DNA of 64,000 nt from Streptomyces sp. NBC_00654. GTDB taxonomy: Bacteria > Actinomycetota > Actinomycetes > Streptomycetales > Streptomycetaceae. Both the position numbers and the translations under genes were made by a program. The DNA lies in the NCBI RefSeq assembly GCF_026341775.1, contig NZ_JAPEOB010000002.1, forward strand, positions 558,001 through 622,000. The letters run 5' to 3'. The notes beneath the pieces were generated by a model that did not search any database, had not been told where the DNA came from, and saw nothing but the letters and a program-made list of their open reading frames with translations. Shown here piece after piece: positions 1 through 8,446 of this stretch. Positions within the stretch are counted from its first letter, which is position 1. Every line of letters starts with the position of its first letter.

Positions 1-635
1 ATCACCACCAGTTCCTCTTCGCGTTGTCCGGCCCTGATGACCCCCCGGTCCTCCAGCAGCGCGATGCGGCGTTTCATGACCGGTCCGAAGGGCACCGTCC
101 GCCGGGCCACCACCGCGGCCTTCAGGCCTCCCCCGCGCAGCAGGTCCACCGTGGTCTCCACCCCGCACACATCGGAGTGCACGATCAGCAGCATGCCGCC
201 GTCGGCGAGCATCCCGGGAGCGTTGGCGCACAGGGGGTCCAGCAGTGCCCGTCCGTCCCGCGCGGCGTCCCAGGCCCTGGCCGGTCCGCTCCGGGGCAGC
301 TCCTGCCGGGGGGACGGTACGTACGGCGGGTTGGCGAGTATCACGTCGAACTGCCGGTGCGCGGGGAGTGTCAGCGCGTCCCTGCGTTCGACCCGGACGG
401 GGAGCCGGCGCACCCGGGTGTTGAACCGCGTCGTGAGCGCGGCACGGCGCGAGATGTCCACGGCCGTGATGTGCCCCGCACCCACGCCGGCGGCGGCGAT
501 GGCCAGGGCGCCGGTGCCGGTGCACATGTCCAGGACCCGTGCGCCGAAGGGGATTCCCGCATCACGCAGCGTCTGGGCCAGCAACCAGGTATCGGCCTGA
601 GGCCGGTAGACACCAGGAGGTCTCAGTAACCACAC
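1..635 (-). CDS. HemK2/MTQ2-type N5-glutamine methyltransferase, 3' end off the window
   Basis: SAM-dependent methylase of the HemK/PrmC superfamily, which methylates glutamine side chains in proteins such as release factors. Visible are the SAM-binding loop VLDMCTGTGALAIAAAG near residue 35 and the family-defining NPPYVPSP motif near residue 88, which binds the amide. The best start is the GTG at 635 (V-W-L-L-R-P-P-G-V-Y), giving the usual N-terminus ending in GVYRPQADT. No strong ribosome site precedes it. About 211 codons are present and the C-terminus lies beyond base 1. It runs in the same direction as the EgtD-like gene 39 bp upstream, so co-transcription is possible. Confidence 0.82.
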   Translation of the reverse strand, partial: MWLLRPPGVYRPQADTWLLAQTLRDAGIPFGARVLDMCTGTGALAIAAAGVGAGHITAVDISRRAALTTRFNTRVRRLPVRVERRDALTLPAHRQFDVILANPPYVPSPRQELPRSGPARAWDAARDGRALLDPLCANAPGMLADGGMLLIVHSDVCGVETTVDLLRGGGLKAAVVARRTVPFGPVMKRRIALLEDRGVIRAGQREEELVV

Positions 636-674
636 GGCACGATCCGCACATCGAAAGTACTGCCCTTTCCCATG

Positions 675-1685
675 TCAGATCTCATGCGTGCGCTCACGGA
701 GATCGTGCGAGCGGGTGAAAAGGAAGATTCCGTACTGCCATTCCTCGTCGATCCACTCCGCGCGGAGATCGAGACCGCGCGAGGTGACATCGGCTACGAA
801 TTGCTCGCGCCGGAACTTGCGGGAAAGCCCGACGTTGATCGATTCTCCGCGCCTCAGGTTCAGCTCAAGATTCAATGCGCGGAGCGCGACGGAATGGTCT
901 TCCCTCGCGTAGACCCGGGCCTCGACGGCAGAGGCATCGGAGTCGAAGTGGGCCCGCACCTGAAAATTCCGGGAGTCGAAATTACCGTCGAAGCGCCGAT
1001 TGAGGTGATCCAGATGATTGAACCGGAATCGCGTGAACGCCGACCGGCCCTCCGGATCGTTGTACGCGGCTTCGAGTGTCCGGGCCGACTTCAGGAGATC
1101 GACGGATACCAGGAATCCGTCGCCGGGCCGGAGCGTACCGACGATCTCGGACATCAGTCCGTCCAGTTCTGCCGATGTCATATTCCCGAGATTGCTCCCG
1201 AGGAATGACACCACCACCGGCTCGGGCTCACTGTCCCGCAGCCAGGCCAGCCCGGCCTCGTACCGGCCCCACAGCCCCCGCACTCTCACGGAGGGAAGCG
1301 TGGCGGCCAGATCTCGCCCGCTGGCCTCGAGCATCTCGCGGCTGACGTCGATCGGCAGGTAGGAGGTCGGGCGACGAGCGGCACAGGCCGCCAACAACAA
1401 GCGGGTCTTCTTGGCGCTCCCGCTGCCCAGTTCGGCGATCGACCCGCATCCGATCAGGTCGGCCATTTCGTCGGCGTGACGCTTCAGCAGCCCGAACTCG
1501 ACCCGAGTGAGATAGTAATCGGGCAGCTCGGTGATCAACTCGAACAGGTCCGACCCGAGAGCGTCGTACCCGAAATGAGCTGGAATCCGCGGCGGCTCCT
1601 CCCCGAGGCCGGCCAGGAGAGCCGACCGGTCATCCCAAAATGCGGCGCCCTTGTCAACCGCCATGATTTCGACTCGACTCAGCAC
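675..1685 (-). CDS. EgtD-like SAM-dependent amino-acid betaine methyltransferase with altered substrate pocket
   Basis: A 336-residue member of the EgtD family, which trimethylates the alpha-amino group of histidine in ergothioneine synthesis. The GTG start at 1685 sits 8 nt after AGGAGGGG. Retained features are FGYDALGSDLF (Y40), YYLTR (Y58), the SAM loop ELGSGSAKKTR and FLGSNLGN (N168). Against the mycobacterial EgtD sequence as I remember it, the C-terminal third aligns without gaps, but the two residues that set histidine specificity differ: M252 is Ala256 and E282 is Gly286. Ser288 (EgtD S284) is kept. No egtA, B, C or E is nearby. The fold is clear. Whether the substrate is histidine, tryptophan or another amino acid is open. 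Third-position GC looks lower than in neighbouring genes, which may indicate transfer. Confidence 0.85.
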   Translation of the reverse strand: MLSRVEIMAVDKGAAFWDDRSALLAGLGEEPPRIPAHFGYDALGSDLFELITELPDYYLTRVEFGLLKRHADEMADLIGCGSIAELGSGSAKKTRLLLAACAARRPTSYLPIDVSREMLEASGRDLAATLPSVRVRGLWGRYEAGLAWLRDSEPEPVVVSFLGSNLGNMTSAELDGLMSEIVGTLRPGDGFLVSVDLLKSARTLEAAYNDPEGRSAFTRFRFNHLDHLNRRFDGNFDSRNFQVRAHFDSDASAVEARVYAREDHSVALRALNLELNLRRGESINVGLSRKFRREQFVADVTSRGLDLRAEWIDEEWQYGIFLFTRSHDLRERTHEI

Positions 1686-2007
1686 TGCAACGCCCCTCCT
1701 GGCTCCCCGGACCGGCGTGCCCGATCAGCAGCCGTAGTCCCATGCCTGCCGTGCGTGCTCCGATCAAACAGGATGCATAGGCCGTCGACGTTCCGGCCGC
1801 CCCCGTGGATTCTGCCACTGCCCAAGAGAGCGCAAACCGCCGCGTGCGGCGAATTCACCGTCCGGCATCGGAGCAGTACGGAATTCGGCCACGGAACGAG
1901 TTCTTGGTCACCGACGCGCCGCCGATTGCCCGCGGGGAGGAGTCAACGCTCACTCATGTCCTCGCTCACTCATGTCCTCGCACGCGAAGGCACACCGGGG
2001 CCTGCCT
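1686..2007. other. intergenic region upstream of the EgtD-like gene, with a 16-bp direct repeat
   Basis: No convincing gene in about 320 bp. It presumably carries the promoter of the leftward EgtD-like gene. It contains two abutting perfect copies of CTCACTCATGTCCTCG (1949-1964 and 1965-1980). Its base composition is less GC-extreme than the flanks. Confidence 0.5.
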
Positions 2008-2496
2008 TCAGGAGAGGTCCTTACGCATCAGGGTGCACATGGTTTCGTAGCGCCGCACCGACCCGTCCGGGGCCTGCTCGTCCCACGCATCCGGCTGACG
2101 GTCATATGCGGCATAGCCCAGTCGTTCGTACAGCACCCGCGCCCGGGGATTGCTCTCCTCCACGCCGAGCTCGGCGTGCCTCAGTCCCCGGGCCCTGATG
2201 CGTTGCTCCGCGGCACCGACGAGGAAGGTGCCGATCCCGCACGACTGCAGGGCGGGATGCACCGCGAGCTGCCACAGCGTGCCGACGCCCCGCTTGACCA
2301 GGTAGTCGACACCACCCTTCGCCACGGGGATGTCCGTCACGGGGCAGACCGCGAGGTAGTCGACCTCTCCGAGCCGTACGCGGGCCAGCTGCTTCGCGAC
2401 GCCTGCCAAATGGTGTTCGGACCCCGACCACCCGCACGACGCCAGGTCCGCGGGCACCAGATCGCGCGCCGACAGCCGCAACTCCACGCTGAACAT
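2008..2496 (-). CDS. GNAT family N-acetyltransferase
   Basis: A single-domain acetyl-CoA-dependent N-acetyltransferase of about 162 residues. The acetyl-CoA pyrophosphate loop is LQSCGIGTFLVGAAEQRIRA (motif A, Q/RxxGxG), followed by ESNPRARVLYERLGY (motif B), as in the family. The ATG at 2496 was chosen because GGGGAG lies 8 nt upstream; in-frame codons further upstream have no ribosome site and an unlikely Arg/Cys-rich reading. Substrate unknown. It is monocistronic between an intergenic repeat region and the DJ-1 gene. Confidence 0.85.
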   Translation of the reverse strand: MFSVELRLSARDLVPADLASCGWSGSEHHLAGVAKQLARVRLGEVDYLAVCPVTDIPVAKGGVDYLVKRGVGTLWQLAVHPALQSCGIGTFLVGAAEQRIRARGLRHAELGVEESNPRARVLYERLGYAAYDRQPDAWDEQAPDGSVRRYETMCTLMRKDLS

Positions 2497-2671
2497 CCTC
2501 AGGTCTCCCCAGTCGTACGTCGATCGGCTCCGGCAACGGCAGGGCTCCGGGGACACCGAACGGAGGCTGTCCCCGCCCCGGAACCCGTCATCTCCCGGAT
2601 CATGTTCCCCTGCGGCCGGCGGGCACGCGCGAGCAGGTGCCCCTTCCTTCAGGGCAAGCGCGGCCGGCCAC

Positions 2672-3409
2672 TCACTGATCGCTCAGCTGTGCCAGCAGGG
2701 CCGGGTGGCCGGCCAGGGCCTTCTGGAGCAGTTCCCGGGCGAAGGGCGCGTACTGGCCGCTGTCGGCGGCCTTCCAGTCGATCGGGCCGAAGGGCGGCTC
2801 GGGGTCGTACTCGATGAACAACTGGACCATCCGCGCGACCTCGTCGCCGGCGAGGCGGCCGACGAGGTGCAGCGCCATGTCGATGCCCGCCGAGACTCCA
2901 GCGGCGGTGATGACATGGCCGTCCTCGACCCAGCGCCGGGTGACCGGGGTCGCCCCGAACCTCGCCAGGAGGTCCCGGTACATCCAGTGCGTGGTGGCCC
3001 GGCGGCCCTCCAGGAGCCCTGCCGCCGCGAGCAGCAGCGAGCCGGTGCACACGGAGCCGACGACCTGGGAACGCGCCGCGGTCTCCCGCAGGTTCCGGAG
3101 CAGATTCTCGTCGGCCATCGCGGCGAGGGTGGGAACGAGGCCACCGGGCACGATCATCGCGTGCGGATCCGGTATCCCGTCGAAGGTGTGACTGGGCACG
3201 AGGGACAGCGGGGTGTCGCTCGCCATCGGCTCGATCCGCTCACCGACCACGACGGTGCGGTAGCCGGGAACGAGATCGCCCAGCGCCGCGAACACCTGTA
3301 GCGGGCCGACGATGTCCAGCGGAGTGATCCCGGGGTACAGCACGAACGCGATGGTCTTCGTCGGGGCCTCGGTCGGCGCGGGCGAGGCTGTGGGCGTGGT
3401 CTCGGTCAT
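2672..3409 (-). CDS. DJ-1/PfpI family protein (isonitrile hydratase-like)
   Basis: A 245-residue flavodoxin-like protein of the class I glutamine amidotransferase superfamily. The nucleophile elbow is GSVCTGSLLLAAAGLLEGR, with the catalytic-type Cys followed by RATTHW, typical of isonitrile hydratases and of the N-terminal domain of GlxA regulators. A low-complexity Thr/Pro/Ala leader (about 20 residues) precedes KTIAFVLYPGITPLDIVGP. The ATG at 3409 follows CCAGGAGCC. It is divergent from the GlxA-type regulator at 3597, whose N-terminal domain is homologous, so the regulator probably controls it. The actual reaction is unknown. Confidence 0.85.
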   Translation of the reverse strand: MTETTPTASPAPTEAPTKTIAFVLYPGITPLDIVGPLQVFAALGDLVPGYRTVVVGERIEPMASDTPLSLVPSHTFDGIPDPHAMIVPGGLVPTLAAMADENLLRNLRETAARSQVVGSVCTGSLLLAAAGLLEGRRATTHWMYRDLLARFGATPVTRRWVEDGHVITAAGVSAGIDMALHLVGRLAGDEVARMVQLFIEYDPEPPFGPIDWKAADSGQYAPFARELLQKALAGHPALLAQLSDQ

Positions 3410-3596
3410 GACAGGGCTCCTGGACGCAGGCGATCGGGTGGCGGATTCCCGGCGGATTCTCCGGACGGCGTGCTGCCGCCCGGCAAGCCTCGCCCGGCGT
3501 CGACGGCGAGAACGGACGAGTCCGGGCTTCCTGTCCGGATTTCTGGGATACCTGTCCTCCAGACACATTCGCGGGACAGCCTTTAGGGTCGTCGGC

Positions 3597-4616
3597 ATGA
3601 CGAAAGCTGTCCGCCACCATGTGGTGGTCGTGGCCTACGACGACGTGGAACTCGTGGAGGTCGCCTGCGTGACCAGCGCCTTCGACGGGGCGAACCGCCT
3701 CGGCGCGAGCCCGCCCTACGAGGTCCGACTGGTCACCCCGGAGGGCCGCCCGGTGCGCTGTTCCTCCGGGCTGGTCCTGGGCTCGCAGGCGGCTCTGGAA
3801 CGTACCCGCGGCCCGGTCGACACCCTGCTGGTGGTCGGCGGACCGGGCCATGCCGCGGCGGCGCGGAACGCCCGGCTGGTCGAGCATGTACGCCGCCTGG
3901 CGGGTCTCGGCCGTCGGGTCGCGTCGGTGTGCACGGGCGCGAGTGTCCTGGCGGCGACGGGCCTGCTCGACGGCCGGCGCGCCACGACCCACTGGGCGTA
4001 CGCGCACGACCTCGCGGAGCGTCACCCGGCCGTCCACGTCGACGCCGCGCCGCTGTACCTGCGCGACGAGCACGTCTGCACGTCGGCGGGGGTCACCGGG
4101 GCGCTCGATCTCACCCTCGCGTTCGTCGAGGAGGACCACGGCCCGGCCCTCGCCCGGACGCTGGCGCGGATGATGGTGACCTATCTCCAGCGTCCGGGAA
4201 ATCAGGCTCAGATCAGCATGTTCGTCGACGCACCGGCCCCGGAGCACCGGACCGTGCGGCAGGCGGTGGAGCACATCACCGGGCACCTCGACGGCGATCT
4301 CACCACTACGGCCCTCGCCACGCACACGGGAGTCAGCGGGCGCCATCTGGCCCGGCTGTTCCTCGACCACCTCGGGCAGAGTCCCGCCCGGTTCGTACGG
4401 ACCGCACGGGCCGAGGCGGCCGCGCAGCTCCTGGTCTCCACACCGCTCTCCCTGGCCTCGATCGCGAGACGCTGCGGGTTCAGCTCGGCCGAGACGATGA
4501 GGCAGGTGTTCCTGGAGCACTACGGAACCACACCGAGCCAGCACCGCACGGTGCACGGCTCCGCACGGGTCACGCCCGCCACCGGCAGTCCGGTTGCCCG
4601 CCGGGACGGCCGGTAG
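3597..4616 (+). CDS. GlxA-type AraC family regulator (DJ-1 domain plus AraC HTH)
   Basis: A 339-residue regulator with an N-terminal DJ-1/PfpI sensor domain (VVVVAYDDVELVEVACV; elbow SVCTGASVLAATGLLDGR) and a C-terminal double-HTH AraC domain (from about residue 220: LATHTGVSGRHLARLFLDHL and IARRCGFSSAETMRQVF). The ATG at 3597 is taken because the AraC/DJ-1 homology begins there. TTTAGGGT lies just upstream, consistent with a very short or absent leader. It is divergent from the DJ-1 gene across about 190 bp, a usual regulator/target layout. Its last 47 bp overlap the 3' end of the convergent acyltransferase gene. Confidence 0.88.
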   Translation: MTKAVRHHVVVVAYDDVELVEVACVTSAFDGANRLGASPPYEVRLVTPEGRPVRCSSGLVLGSQAALERTRGPVDTLLVVGGPGHAAAARNARLVEHVRRLAGLGRRVASVCTGASVLAATGLLDGRRATTHWAYAHDLAERHPAVHVDAAPLYLRDEHVCTSAGVTGALDLTLAFVEEDHGPALARTLARMMVTYLQRPGNQAQISMFVDAPAPEHRTVRQAVEHITGHLDGDLTTTALATHTGVSGRHLARLFLDHLGQSPARFVRTARAEAAAQLLVSTPLSLASIARRCGFSSAETMRQVFLEHYGTTPSQHRTVHGSARVTPATGSPVARRDGR

Positions 4617-5328
4617 GACGCCCTCCCGTCGCCGGCCGGCCCGCGGCGTGAACCGCGGGCGCGGCCTGCACGGCGAGGGCGGCGGGCTCGCCGAGGCGGG
4701 CGGCCGCCGTACGCCACGCCGTGGTCACCGCGCTCCGGGCCCGCGCCGTGCGCATGGCCCGGTCGCCGCTGAGTTCCAGCGGCGCCCCCACGTGGACATG
4801 CAGGTCGGGCCGGCGCAGCGGTGCCGTGGCCAGTCCGGCGAGCTGCTTGGCCACGCTTCCCGAGGTGACGCGGCGGGCGCCGGCCTGGCCCACGGGTACG
4901 ACGGGGGCTCCGGTGCGTTCGGTGAGCCGGGCCAGGCCGCTGTGGAAGGTGCCCGGGGCCGCCTCCGCCGCGTCCGTGCGGCGGGGCAGGCCGCCTTCGG
5001 CGTAGATGAGGATCAGCCTGCCGTGCGCGAGGGCCTCCGCCGCCGCGTCGATCGCGGCCGCGGCCCGGCGGTCCCGGCGGAACACGGGGATGTGCCCCTC
5101 CCGGGCGAGGACCCGGCCGAGCAGGGGAACGCGCCACAGTCCGGCCGCCGCCATGACGACGGGCTCGACGCCGAGGCGGTACAGGGCGGCGAGCACGATG
5201 GCGGGGTCGGCGAGCGAGGTGTGGTTCGCGACGATGACGCTGCCCGGCGTGAGGCCGGTGCCGGAGTCGGTGGTCACCGACAGACGGCCGACGCCCGGCG
5301 CCAGGATGCCGGCGATTCGACTGAGCAT
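4570..5328 (-). CDS. lysophospholipid acyltransferase (PlsC family)
   Basis: A 252-residue 1-acyl-glycerol-3-phosphate acyltransferase-like protein. It has the catalytic NHTSLAD (NHx4D) motif near residue 35, the substrate-binding block PVFRRD, and YAEGGLPRR as a variant of the EGTR motif. Such enzymes transfer acyl chains to lysophospholipids or ornithine-lipid precursors at the membrane. The C-terminus is a low-complexity Ala/Pro/Arg tail that overlaps the convergent GlxA-type gene. The ATG at 5328 has GGAG 8 nt upstream. The exact acceptor cannot be read from the sequence. Confidence 0.82.
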   Translation of the reverse strand: MLSRIAGILAPGVGRLSVTTDSGTGLTPGSVIVANHTSLADPAIVLAALYRLGVEPVVMAAAGLWRVPLLGRVLAREGHIPVFRRDRRAAAAIDAAAEALAHGRLILIYAEGGLPRRTDAAEAAPGTFHSGLARLTERTGAPVVPVGQAGARRVTSGSVAKQLAGLATAPLRRPDLHVHVGAPLELSGDRAMRTARARSAVTTAWRTAAARLGEPAALAVQAAPAVHAAGRPATGGRPTGRPGGQPDCRWRA

Positions 5329-5403
5329 GTGTGGTCTCCGTTTTCGACGATGGTGTTCCTCATCGTCGGCGGCGGGAGGCCGCTGGGGCGTGAGTCCTCG
5401 TAC

Positions 5404-7227
5404 TCATCTTCCCGGCCGCCGTGGCGAGTTCCCGTTCCCGGCCCGGAGGATGTCGGCCATGGACTCTTCGCGCCATCGGCTCAGGAGTTCGTGGAAGGCG
5501 TACGCGCCGTGAGGGTAGGCGATCGGGCCGTTCGGCCGGCCGCGCCCCTCGCGGTTGTAATAGCCGGGGGTGCACTCGGCGTGGAACCACTCGTGGTCGG
5601 GGGCGTCCTCGGCCAGGACGGCGAGCCAGGCGTCCTCGGCCGCGCGGGACGGTTCGATGAGCGCGCCCTCGGCTTCGGCCGCCGCGACGAGGGCTGCGGC
5701 ATGGACGGCCTGCTCGTCCAGAATGTGCGTGAAGTTGACGCTGCTGGCGTTCTGGAGCGTCCCCATCTGGATCAGGTTCGGGAAGCCGTTGCTGGTGAAG
5801 CCGTGCAGAGTGCGCGGGCCCTGTCGCGCCCAGGTGTGCAGCAACTGGGCGCCGCCGCGGCCGTGGACGGGGAGCTTGCCGGAGTGGATGCCGGAGGTCC
5901 CGACGGAGAACCCGGTGGCGAAGATCAGGCAGTCGAGTTCATACGTGGTGTCGCCGACCACGACGCCGTGTTCGGTGATGCGCTCGATGCCATGGGTGTC
6001 CGCGGTGTCGACCAGGGTGACGTTGCCGCGGTTGAACGCCGGGTAGTACGTGTCGGAGAAGGTGGGGCGCTTGCAGGCGTACCGGTACCAGGGTTTGAGC
6101 TTCTCCGCCGTGTCCGGGTCGGTGACGGACTGTTCGACGCGGGTGCGGAGTTCGTTCATCTTGGCGGCGTCGGCCGCCTCGTAGGCGGCTTCGAAGACCT
6201 TCCGGTCGCCCTGCCGGCGGAAGCTCGGCAGGAGCTTCTCCAGGAGGTGGGCCGACAGGGTCCAGCGGTCCGCCACGAGATCCTGTCCGGCCGTCTCACC
6301 GGAGACGATCCGCAGATAGTTCTCACGGCGTTCTCGCGCCCAGCCGTCGTGGTCGGCGCCGACGTCCCGGGCGGTGGTACGGCGGTTGGCACGCACGTCC
6401 ACGGTGGAGGGGGTGCGCTGGAAGACGTAGACGTGCCGGGCGTCCTCGGCCAGCATGGGTATGACCTGGACGCCGGTGGCCCCGGTGCCGACGATGCCCA
6501 CCCGTTTCCGCGCGAGGCCGGTCATGCCTCCGTCCGGGGTGCCGCCGGTGTAGGCGTAGTCCCACCGTGACGTGTGGAAGGTGTGGCCCCTGAAGTCCTC
6601 GATGCCGGGTATCCCGGGGAGCTTCGGCTCGGAGAGGGTGCCGGTGGCCGTGACGACGTACGTGGCCCGGAACGCGTCGCCGCGGTCGGTGGAGACGATC
6701 CACGTCCCGGACGCCTCGTCCCAGGCGAGTGAGGTGACCGCGGTGGAGAACAGTGCGTCGGAGTAGAGGGTGAACTTCCGTGCGACCCGCATCGCGTGGC
6801 GGCGTATCTCCTCACCGGGAGAGTACTTCCACTCCGGAACGTACCCGGTCTCGTCGAGCATCGGCAGGTACACGTGCGATTCGATGTCGCAGTGGATGCC
6901 CGGGTACCGGTTCCAGTACCAGGTGCCCCCGAAGTCGCCGCCCTTCTCCACGATCCGGACGCGCTCCAAGCCCTGTTGCCGCATCCGCGCCCCGGCGAGA
7001 ATGCCGCCGAATCCCCCACCGACCACCGCGACATCGACGATGTCGTGCAGCGGCTCCCGCCCGACCGGCTCCCCCGCGTACGGATCTGCGGCGTAGTAGC
7101 CGAACTCGGCGTCGGTGTCGCGGTATTGGCGGGCACCGTCGGGCCGTACACGCCGTTCACGTTCGAGGCGGTACCGCTCCCTCAGCGCGGCGGGTCCGTC
7201 GGGGGCCGACGCTTGAGAGGTTGTCAT
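5404..7227 (-). CDS. flavin-dependent monooxygenase, Baeyer-Villiger type
   Basis: A 607-residue class B flavoprotein monooxygenase. Two Rossmann motifs (VVGGGFGGILAG for FAD and VGIVGTGATGVQVIP for NADPH) flank the Baeyer-Villiger fingerprint FRGHTFHTSRWD (FxGxxxHxxxW[P/D]). GGTWYWNRYPGIHCDIES is the conserved cyclohexanone-monooxygenase block. Such enzymes insert oxygen next to a ketone, giving esters or lactones. The ATG at 7227 has GAGG about 10 nt upstream; an in-frame TTG at 7242 is less likely. It is divergent from a lactonase-like lipoprotein, suggesting a ketone to lactone to hydroxyacid route (inference). The acyltransferase gene follows 75 bp downstream. Confidence 0.9.
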   Translation of the reverse strand: MTTSQASAPDGPAALRERYRLERERRVRPDGARQYRDTDAEFGYYAADPYAGEPVGREPLHDIVDVAVVGGGFGGILAGARMRQQGLERVRIVEKGGDFGGTWYWNRYPGIHCDIESHVYLPMLDETGYVPEWKYSPGEEIRRHAMRVARKFTLYSDALFSTAVTSLAWDEASGTWIVSTDRGDAFRATYVVTATGTLSEPKLPGIPGIEDFRGHTFHTSRWDYAYTGGTPDGGMTGLARKRVGIVGTGATGVQVIPMLAEDARHVYVFQRTPSTVDVRANRRTTARDVGADHDGWARERRENYLRIVSGETAGQDLVADRWTLSAHLLEKLLPSFRRQGDRKVFEAAYEAADAAKMNELRTRVEQSVTDPDTAEKLKPWYRYACKRPTFSDTYYPAFNRGNVTLVDTADTHGIERITEHGVVVGDTTYELDCLIFATGFSVGTSGIHSGKLPVHGRGGAQLLHTWARQGPRTLHGFTSNGFPNLIQMGTLQNASSVNFTHILDEQAVHAAALVAAAEAEGALIEPSRAAEDAWLAVLAEDAPDHEWFHAECTPGYYNREGRGRPNGPIAYPHGAYAFHELLSRWREESMADILRAGNGNSPRRPGR

Positions 7228-7295
7228 GTGGGGGGACCTCAATCCTGTCGATCGGGCCGCCCCGGATCGAACGGCCGTCCGCTACGGTAGCAACT

Positions 7296-7315
7296 ACCGG
7301 ACAACGGTGTCCGGT
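7296..7315. promoter_or_regulatory. palindromic operator candidate between the monooxygenase and lipoprotein genes
   Basis: A perfect inverted repeat, ACCGGACA-N4-TGTCCGGT, in the 199-bp divergent promoter region. Length and symmetry fit a TetR-family operator, and the TetR gene at 8460-9050 is the obvious candidate binder. Binding is inferred. Confidence 0.5.
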
Positions 7316-7426
7316 TGACGCACGGGTGCATATGGCGCTCGCCCTGAGCCCGTCCACGCCCCGGGCGGCAGCCGCGGGCCCCGGCCGAAGGCACCCGCAC
7401 ACAGCGGACAGGAAGAGTGATCCCCC

Positions 7427-8446
7427 ATGCCACGACTCTCCATCCGGCCCCTGGCCGTCCTCGCCATGACCGGCACCCTGATCCTCACCGGGTGCGGCAC
7501 GCAGACAGGTGACCCGGGCGGTCGGGCGGCCCCCGTCGGCGCGGACAGGATCATCCGCGCGCACAAGGTCATGCAGCTGACAAAGGTCCACGAAGAGACC
7601 GGGATGACGCTGCTGGAGGGCCCGGCCTTCGGCGAGGACGGCGGCCTCTTCGTCGTGGACGTCACCGCGCCCTCGGGCCGGCCCAAGGTGATACGCGTCG
7701 ATGTCGGGAAGAAGACGTCGCGGGCGGTCCACACCGACGACCGGGGGGCTTACACCTCGGCGCAGTTCAGCCCTTACGACGGACGGCTCTACCTGACCGA
7801 CTACGCCCACGGCGAGGTCGTGAGCCTGGCCCCGGACGGCGGTGATCAGCGGACCTTCTTCTCCGGCGAGGTCGAGGGGGCACAGATGAACCCCGACGAC
7901 ATCGCCTTCGACGAGGAGGGCAACCTGTACGTCAGCGACTCCCGCGGCCTGAGCGAGGGCAAGGAGCACGGGCGTGTGGTGCGGATCGACCGCGACGGCG
8001 AGAAGGCCAGCGTCCTGGCCGAGGATCTGGCCTCGACGAACGGAATCTCCTTCGACGTGGACTACCGAGGGCTCTGGATCAGCGAGCTGACCCAGAACCG
8101 GATCTCCTACCTCCGCCTCGACGGAAAGGGCGGCGTGGCTTCCCGGCACACCGCCATCCGTGTCGACGGCGGAATCGCCCAGACCGACTCGATCGCCGTG
8201 GACGCGGACGCCAACCTCTACCTGGGACTGCACGGCCGGGCCGCGATGGCCGTGTACGACCAGCACGGTGAGCGCATCGCGACGGTGGAGATCCCCTCCC
8301 GCGCCGAAGGCCTCGAATCGGTGACGAACGTGGCGATCACGCCCGGCGGGACCAAGGCCTACATGACCGTCAGCGGGCCCGCCGGAGGGTTCCTGTACTC
8401 CTTCGACGCTCCGGCGGAAGGTATCCGGCAGTCCAACGGCGGCTGA
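7427..8446 (+). CDS. SMP-30/gluconolactonase-like lipoprotein
   Basis: A 339-residue exported lipoprotein. The signal peptide ends in the lipobox LTGC (Cys23). The mature part is a six-bladed beta-propeller of the SMP-30/gluconolactonase/LRE group, with characteristic strands such as GPAFGEDGGLFVVDVTAP, NPDDIAFDEEGNLYVSDSRG (metal-site Asn/Asp) and STNGISFDVDYRGLWISE. Family members hydrolyse lactones with a divalent metal or act as binding propellers. The ATG at 7427 follows a weak AGTGAT site. It is divergent from the Baeyer-Villiger monooxygenase and convergent with the TetR gene 13 bp away. A role in opening lactones made by the monooxygenase is plausible but unproven. Confidence 0.83.
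   Translation: MPRLSIRPLAVLAMTGTLILTGCGTQTGDPGGRAAPVGADRIIRAHKVMQLTKVHEETGMTLLEGPAFGEDGGLFVVDVTAPSGRPKVIRVDVGKKTSRAVHTDDRGAYTSAQFSPYDGRLYLTDYAHGEVVSLAPDGGDQRTFFSGEVEGAQMNPDDIAFDEEGNLYVSDSRGLSEGKEHGRVVRIDRDGEKASVLAEDLASTNGISFDVDYRGLWISELTQNRISYLRLDGKGGVASRHTAIRVDGGIAQTDSIAVDADANLYLGLHGRAAMAVYDQHGERIATVEIPSRAEGLESVTNVAITPGGTKAYMTVSGPAGGFLYSFDAPAEGIRQSNGG

Follow-up and report, generated by a model that had tools for sequence, protein, structure and literature searches.

The closest described histidine N-alpha-methyltransferase to the protein studied here is EgtD (M. smegmatis, structures 4uy6 and 4pim; M. tuberculosis, 7scf). The EasF family (TIGR03439), which we take to be the fungal 4-dimethylallyltryptophan N-methyltransferase, also matches our protein, with a lower score than the EgtD model; should that substrate assignment be correct, indole amino acids are within the reach of EgtD relatives. 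The specificity of EgtD itself has reportedly been engineered, the double change M252V/E282A being said (Vit et al. 2015) to turn the enzyme from histidine to tryptophan. The variant is represented by structure 4pip, with tryptophan bound. According to excerpts of PMC8593015, EgtD holds the carboxylate of its substrate by Y56, Y206 and S284 and the amine by N166, while T213 and the carbonyl of Ala205 position a water at the imidazole.

A second set of described systems involves heme-oxygenase-like diiron oxygenases (HDOs). These appear to be specialised in amino acid substrates, and one of them, MboA, has a dedicated redox partner and acts on a tripeptide (PMC13185094, in excerpt). In the streptozocin pathway the arginine N-methyltransferase SznE feeds SznF, whose metal ligands are E215, H225, E281, H311, D315 and H318 (PMC11705231, in excerpt).

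We compared with these systems an EgtD-like gene of Streptomyces sp. NBC_00654, located in a stretch of 64,000 nucleotides that was analysed as a whole (the window; Table 1). Our main reading, to which we give a probability of roughly two in three, is that its product is a predicted alpha-N-methyltransferase of an amino acid other than histidine and bulkier than it, linked to a pathway encoded by HemK, CDGSH and HDO genes.

Table 1. Positions of the genes and codons discussed, numbered in the window unless a contig (C) or locus (L) is named, and gene orders around the EgtD-like gene (E, read forward)
Feature	Position or loci	Strand	Remark
EgtD-like SAM methyltransferase (PF10017), 336 aa, GTG start	675..1685	-	A256/G286 at EgtD M252/E282
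Ala256 codon (EgtD M252)	918..920	-	alignment mapping
Gly286 codon (EgtD E282)	828..830	-	alignment mapping
HemK/N6AMT1-like methyltransferase, NPPY motif, 221 aa in full	1..635 (full: L036:12970-13635)	-	runs 31 bases past left window end
DJ-1/PfpI ORF pair	2672-4616		two neighbouring opposite ORFs
Flavin monooxygenase, 612 aa	5404-7242	-	
Canonical EgtD of the window's genome	C1:3652828-3653727		382.7 bits
HDO and CDGSH genes of the window's genome	L040:7837-9600		at C2:995.9 kb
HDO of the window's genome	L040:7837-8907		
EgtD paralogue with Asp282	L019:10007-10981		
Broken gene set of G099	L119:6750-9101		
Order E-HemK-CDGSH, HDO facing	L003, L010, L038		
Order of four genes forward, E first	L005, L116		
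Order HemK-CDGSH-HDO-E	most loci		
Cassette divergent from E	L014		
Cassette convergent with E	L114		
Order HemK-E, CDGSH match 3.6 kb on	L113		

Substrate-pocket residues of the EgtD-like protein

The protein matches the EgtD superfamily model PF10017 (Methyltransf_33) over its full length and above the gathering score, indicating the EgtD fold, and its predicted structure model is confident. It stays below the cut-offs of two narrower models: it scores 263.7 bits against 290.9 for the EgtD equivalog TIGR03438, for which the canonical EgtD of the same genome reaches 372.6 bits, and 165.4 bits against 205.55 for TIGR03439. Its nearest full-length relatives among the matches listed are Streptomyces proteins with 80-83% identity, and many members of its clade among those matches carry the public annotation 'L-histidine N(alpha)-methyltransferase'.

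The original prediction had placed Ala256 at EgtD M252 and Gly286 at E282 on a gap-free reading. Pairwise and multiple alignments agree on both assignments, and a possible shift by a gap was examined and affects neither site. The gap-free reading itself holds locally and fails overall: 47 residues separate the columns of Y206 and M252 in the query, as in 166 of the 171 related rows with Gly or Ser at 282 (among the matches listed), versus 45 in EgtD, so that this segment is two residues longer in the query. Both side-chain determinants of the EgtD pocket, M252 and E282, are replaced. The residues that grip the carboxylate and the amine are intact (Y56, N166, Y206 and S284, plus Y39), as had been predicted from Y40, Y58, N168 and S288, with a correction to one of these: query Y58 corresponds to EgtD Y57, and the carboxylate-holding Y56 of EgtD is query Y57. 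The remaining pocket residues are Asn165 (EgtD T163), Met169 (L167), Ala207 (A205), Ser215 (T213) and Tyr142 (F142).

A natural clade altered at both positions

Rows for comparison were collected by similarity searches with the query and with the protein of locus L019 (the best 120 of each), and the counts below are therefore not prevalences. As an independent check, groups were chosen by kinship. All ten canonical rows so chosen (EgtD, the genome's own copy and eight relatives) have Met252 and Glu282, as do 27 of 27 canonical rows in a further alignment. The 137 kinship-chosen clade rows, in which the query is counted two times (as QUERY and as P0002) and 16 loci duplicate some of the P proteins, have Ala (67), Gly (60), Val (8), Glu (1) or Thr (1) at position 252 and Gly (128) or Ser (9) at position 282, among the matches listed.

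An alignment of 264 rows was sorted by positions 252 and 282, so that its groups are pure at both sites by construction; it contains, among the matches listed, 171 rows with Gly or Ser at 282, 15 with Asp282, 78 with Met or Ile at 252 and Glu282 (all 27 canonical EgtDs among them), and no others. At the backbone-binding positions of the 171 Gly/Ser282 rows listed, Y39, Y56, G161 and Y206 occur in every one, N166 in 170 and S284 in 162, the other nine having Ala there. The side-chain positions behave differently. Ala205 and Thr213 are found in 78/78 of the Met/Ile252 plus Glu282 rows, whereas the Gly/Ser282 rows mostly have Cys205 (141/171), Ser213 (137/171), Asn163 (148/171) and Thr167 (123/171), again among the matches listed. 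Judged from this alignment, the side-chain pocket positions are changed as a set across the clade. Several of them are polar in most members (Asn163, Thr167, Cys205), the query itself having Asn, Met and Ala at these three.

We then estimated the room that the changes might leave. Summed over seven positions from residue volumes, which is a crude figure and not a structural measurement, the pocket side chains amount to 979 Å³ in EgtD, 906 in the engineered M252V/E282A pair, 797 in the query and 760 in the clade mean. Changed residues at 253 and 255 and the two extra residues near 213 could, on the alignment, refill the pocket. The query shares small residues at both positions with the engineered variant and differs from it in that its change is natural, clade-wide and accompanied by further pocket changes. 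This comparison bears on the possibility that the enzyme works apart from any HDO cassette and makes a betaine, for instance hypaphorine, by trimethylating tryptophan or some other proteinogenic aromatic amino acid. The tryptophan-bound 4pip structure has the same two positions made small, and the engineered pair frees about 73 Å³, near the difference of 75 Å³ between tryptophan and histidine by residue volumes. On the other hand, the natural set frees more by the same crude sum, polar residues have been added in most clade members, and the linkage to the HDO cassette described below would go unexplained. We regard tryptophan betaine synthesis as unlikely, though worth keeping in view, and the hint towards tryptophan in the original prediction loses ground on the first two of these points.

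The distribution of the changes on a tree points to one origin. In a quick IQ-TREE reconstruction of 86 rows chosen from the 264, with SH-aLRT support and without bootstrap, the 53 rows altered at 252/282 lie on one side of a single branch (SH-aLRT 100), and the 38 Gly/Ser282 rows among the 86 share one branch (SH-aLRT 99). In the same reconstruction two changes are required to account for the 15 Asp282 rows, which therefore may not be one clade. They form a second altered group of EgtD paralogues among the matches listed, with Ala or Ser at 252, typified by locus L019, where the EgtD-like gene is flanked by an OTCase-like ORF (assigned by eye) and a sulfotransferase. No HDO cassette was found within 10 kb of it, and the Asp282 group likely has a different specificity.

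Co-resident canonical EgtD

The window's genome encodes a canonical EgtD elsewhere, adjoined at G000:C1:3.65 Mb by EgtA-, EgtB- and EgtC-like ORFs (assigned by eye; only EgtD was scored). Near the query, neither egtA, egtB nor egtC was present among the eight ORFs scanned (window 3-8446), and no egt gene was seen by eye in the 13.7 kb flank of the gene (L036). The same pairing recurs in other carriers. Each of the 17 genomes of loci L003-L019 has one PF10017 match of 365-390 bits and one of 264-302 bits, with further weak matches in G075 and G077; the lower-scoring copy is the clade member (in G076, the Asp282 protein), and all 17 high-scoring copies (L089-L105) have M252 and E282. In G019, of the window's genus, the second EgtD match has 37% identity. 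A second match of 32-40% identity is likewise found in 22/22 carriers of the genus Pseudonocardia, 11 of which overlap the 17 scored genomes while the other 11 were assigned by identity match and not by EgtD-model score. By these sequence matches, every carrier genome checked has an EgtD of canonical or canonical-like type.

That co-residence counts against a second histidine methyltransferase, that is, an EgtD isoenzyme whose drifted pocket still takes histidine, as do the score under the equivalog cut-off and the replacement, in 137/137 clade rows among the matches listed, of the two residues kept in 27/27 canonical ones. The public annotation of many clade members and the retained fold and backbone grip are what such an isoenzyme would have in its favour, and we consider it distinctly unlikely.

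Linkage to HemK, CDGSH and HDO genes

The gene had been described as standing alone without other egt genes. Egt genes are indeed missing nearby, but the gene has a close neighbour: 39 bp after its stop, on the same strand, begins a gene for a HemK-like protein that is 86% identical to the HemK of locus L003 and is the only strong match of this cassette type in the genome (the next has 34% identity and 47.7 bits). In relatives, HemK is accompanied by a CDGSH protein (PF09360) and an HDO (PF14518, 'iron-containing redox enzyme'). All three lie within 2.5 kb of the EgtD-like gene at 14 of the 16 Gly/Ser282 loci L003-L018, two of which (L012 and L013) are apparently one strain twice; the two loci where no cassette was seen nearby, L004 and L018 (G075), are on contigs of 5.8 and 4.1 kb. 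The four genes are also together in G019 (L038).

The genus Pseudonocardia offered a broader sample. Among 62 genomes, 22 have a clade member (56-100% identity to the L015 protein; partial in G099), 53 have the HDO and 21 have both, and the HDO lies within 1 kb of the EgtD-like gene in 18 of the 22 carriers; 11 of the 22 are the genomes of L006, L008, L009 and L011-L018 already in the 16-locus count. In G075, G080 and G128 the two genes are on different contigs, and no cassette was found near the EgtD-like gene in the 5-8 kb of flank read in G080 and G128. G113 has HemK adjacent and gave no HDO match; true loss of the HDO was considered there and set aside as possibly a contig break, a 16-residue CDGSH-like match (E 7.7e-4) lying at the very end of the contig. 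No canonical-like EgtD was seen within 100 kb of the HDO in the 62 genomes, the nearest being 138 kb away in G091 (tables read by eye).

By eye, at least six gene orders can be told apart (Table 1). No HemK match was found in L117, and an apparent EgtD-like/HemK fusion in L005 was dismissed, an in-frame stop separating two genes. When neighbourhood persists despite such changes of order, the genes concerned are usually used together. Because the sampled genomes cluster phylogenetically, we give no p-value for the linkage.

The window's genome departs from this pattern, with only HemK adjacent to the query and the HDO and CDGSH genes 436 kb away. At that distant site all that was found of HemK is its C-terminal portion, on the minus strand, plus a short plus-strand fragment. 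We infer that the HemK beside the query may now serve the HDO of the distant cassette. In G099, counted among the 18 linked carriers, HemK and HDO in pieces lie side by side with an EgtD-like gene cut short, and the whole set appears to be decaying together. Both the separation in the window's genome and this broken set might suggest that the gene studied here is itself a decaying or inactive remnant, an idea to which we attach almost no credence given its full-length open frame, its intact Y39, Y56, N166, Y206 and S284, its 80-83% identity to the nearest full-length relatives among the matches listed, and its confident structure model.

The cassette also occurs widely without the EgtD-like gene. 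A clade member was found in 2 of 392 genomes of the window's genus (its own and G019; E 1e-75), and the HDO in 29 of 37, the window's own included. An HDO of the cassette family is present in 17/17 genomes of L003-L019. Of the 53 HDO-bearing Pseudonocardia-genus genomes, 32 have the cassette without an EgtD-like gene. Twenty HDO stretches from outside the clade (L061-L080) contain CDGSH in 20/20 cases and HemK in 15/20, with no EgtD-like match in any of them. Since the cassette is common without it, the EgtD-like gene is an accessory at most.

Features of the HDO partner

Two cassette HDOs that were scanned score 193.7 and 195.8 bits for PF14518, against a threshold of 28.9, and sequence matches connect the family to SznF (E 2.5e-07) and HrmI (E 6.9e-05). 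In an alignment of 13 HDOs, which leaves out that of the window's own genome, E181, H191, E247, H277, D281 and H284 are invariant (13/13) and align to SznF, with a spacing exactly that of its six metal ligands as given in the excerpts of PMC11705231. PF14518 was the only domain found; unlike SznF, the cassette HDO has no cupin domain. As far as those excerpts describe streptozocin synthesis, the cassette shares its logic of a methyltransferase and an SznF-like HDO working on an amino acid, and differs in having HemK-like and EgtD-like methyltransferases and a CDGSH protein. A fold model of the HDO (mean pLDDT 48.2) was discarded.

Proposed function

Because the histidine-recognition residues are lost, the change runs through a sizeable actinobacterial family and the genes are usually linked to the cassette, a different amino acid is probably methylated. 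The EgtD paralogue would retain the fold and SAM site of EgtD and its hold on the alpha-carboxylate and alpha-amine, with a side-chain pocket rebuilt to be non-acidic and, by our size estimate, larger. It would methylate the alpha-nitrogen of an amino acid that is distinct from histidine and bulkier, adding between one and three methyl groups; that amino acid would probably serve as substrate, intermediate or product in the actinobacterial HemK-like/CDGSH/HDO pathway, in which the CDGSH iron-sulphur protein is a possible redox partner of the HDO. We propose that the enzyme alpha-N-methylates, as an optional step, an amino acid that the cassette either makes or uses, because, in the excerpts cited above, HDOs appear to be specialised in amino acid substrates, SznE feeds SznF and MboA has a redox partner. 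The alpha-N-methylation, the pocket size and the HDO partnership are all predictions. We name tryptophan, N5-methylglutamine and amino acids with a guanidine or hydroxylamine group simply as candidate substrates.

An opened pocket could also admit the alpha-amine of a peptide or of a larger cassette product in place of a free amino acid, and the tripeptide substrate of the HDO MboA (PMC13185094, in excerpt) offers a precedent; yet the carboxylate-binding tyrosines 56 and 206 never vary in the Gly/Ser282 rows listed, pointing to a free alpha-amino acid and making peptide methylation, in our judgement, very unlikely. The idea of a natural non-histidine betaine synthase put forward in the original prediction is partly supported as far as the clade-wide change, the co-resident EgtD, the joint changes at 163, 167, 205 and 213 and the HDO linkage go, with the catalysis a matter of prediction.

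More tentatively, the HDO/CDGSH/HemK pathway may include an optional step in which the natural clade produces a so far undescribed betaine or N-methylated form of an amino acid, marking a natural-product family. Titles and abstract starts in the open-licence literature yielded neither a natural EgtD paralogue with these residues nor a paper on the HDO/CDGSH/HemK set. If true, nature would have redirected a scaffold through the very two positions that engineers chose. The L-histidine N(alpha)-methyltransferase naming in databases would wrongly count clade members as ergothioneine genes. Should our main reading hold, these proteins would show in natural variants what determines the specificity of EgtD, could yield new amino-acid N-methyltransferases and would flag an HDO gene set whose HDO is present in the majority of genomes sampled in two genera.

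Other genes in the window

Further genes of the window were noted in passing. For the pentalenolactone D synthase model, whose cut-off is 1100, the flavin monooxygenase falls short with 641.9 bits. The two ORFs with DJ-1/PfpI domains, one of which also has an AraC-type DNA-binding domain (FtrA/GbdR-like), overlap at their start ends in their longest frames.
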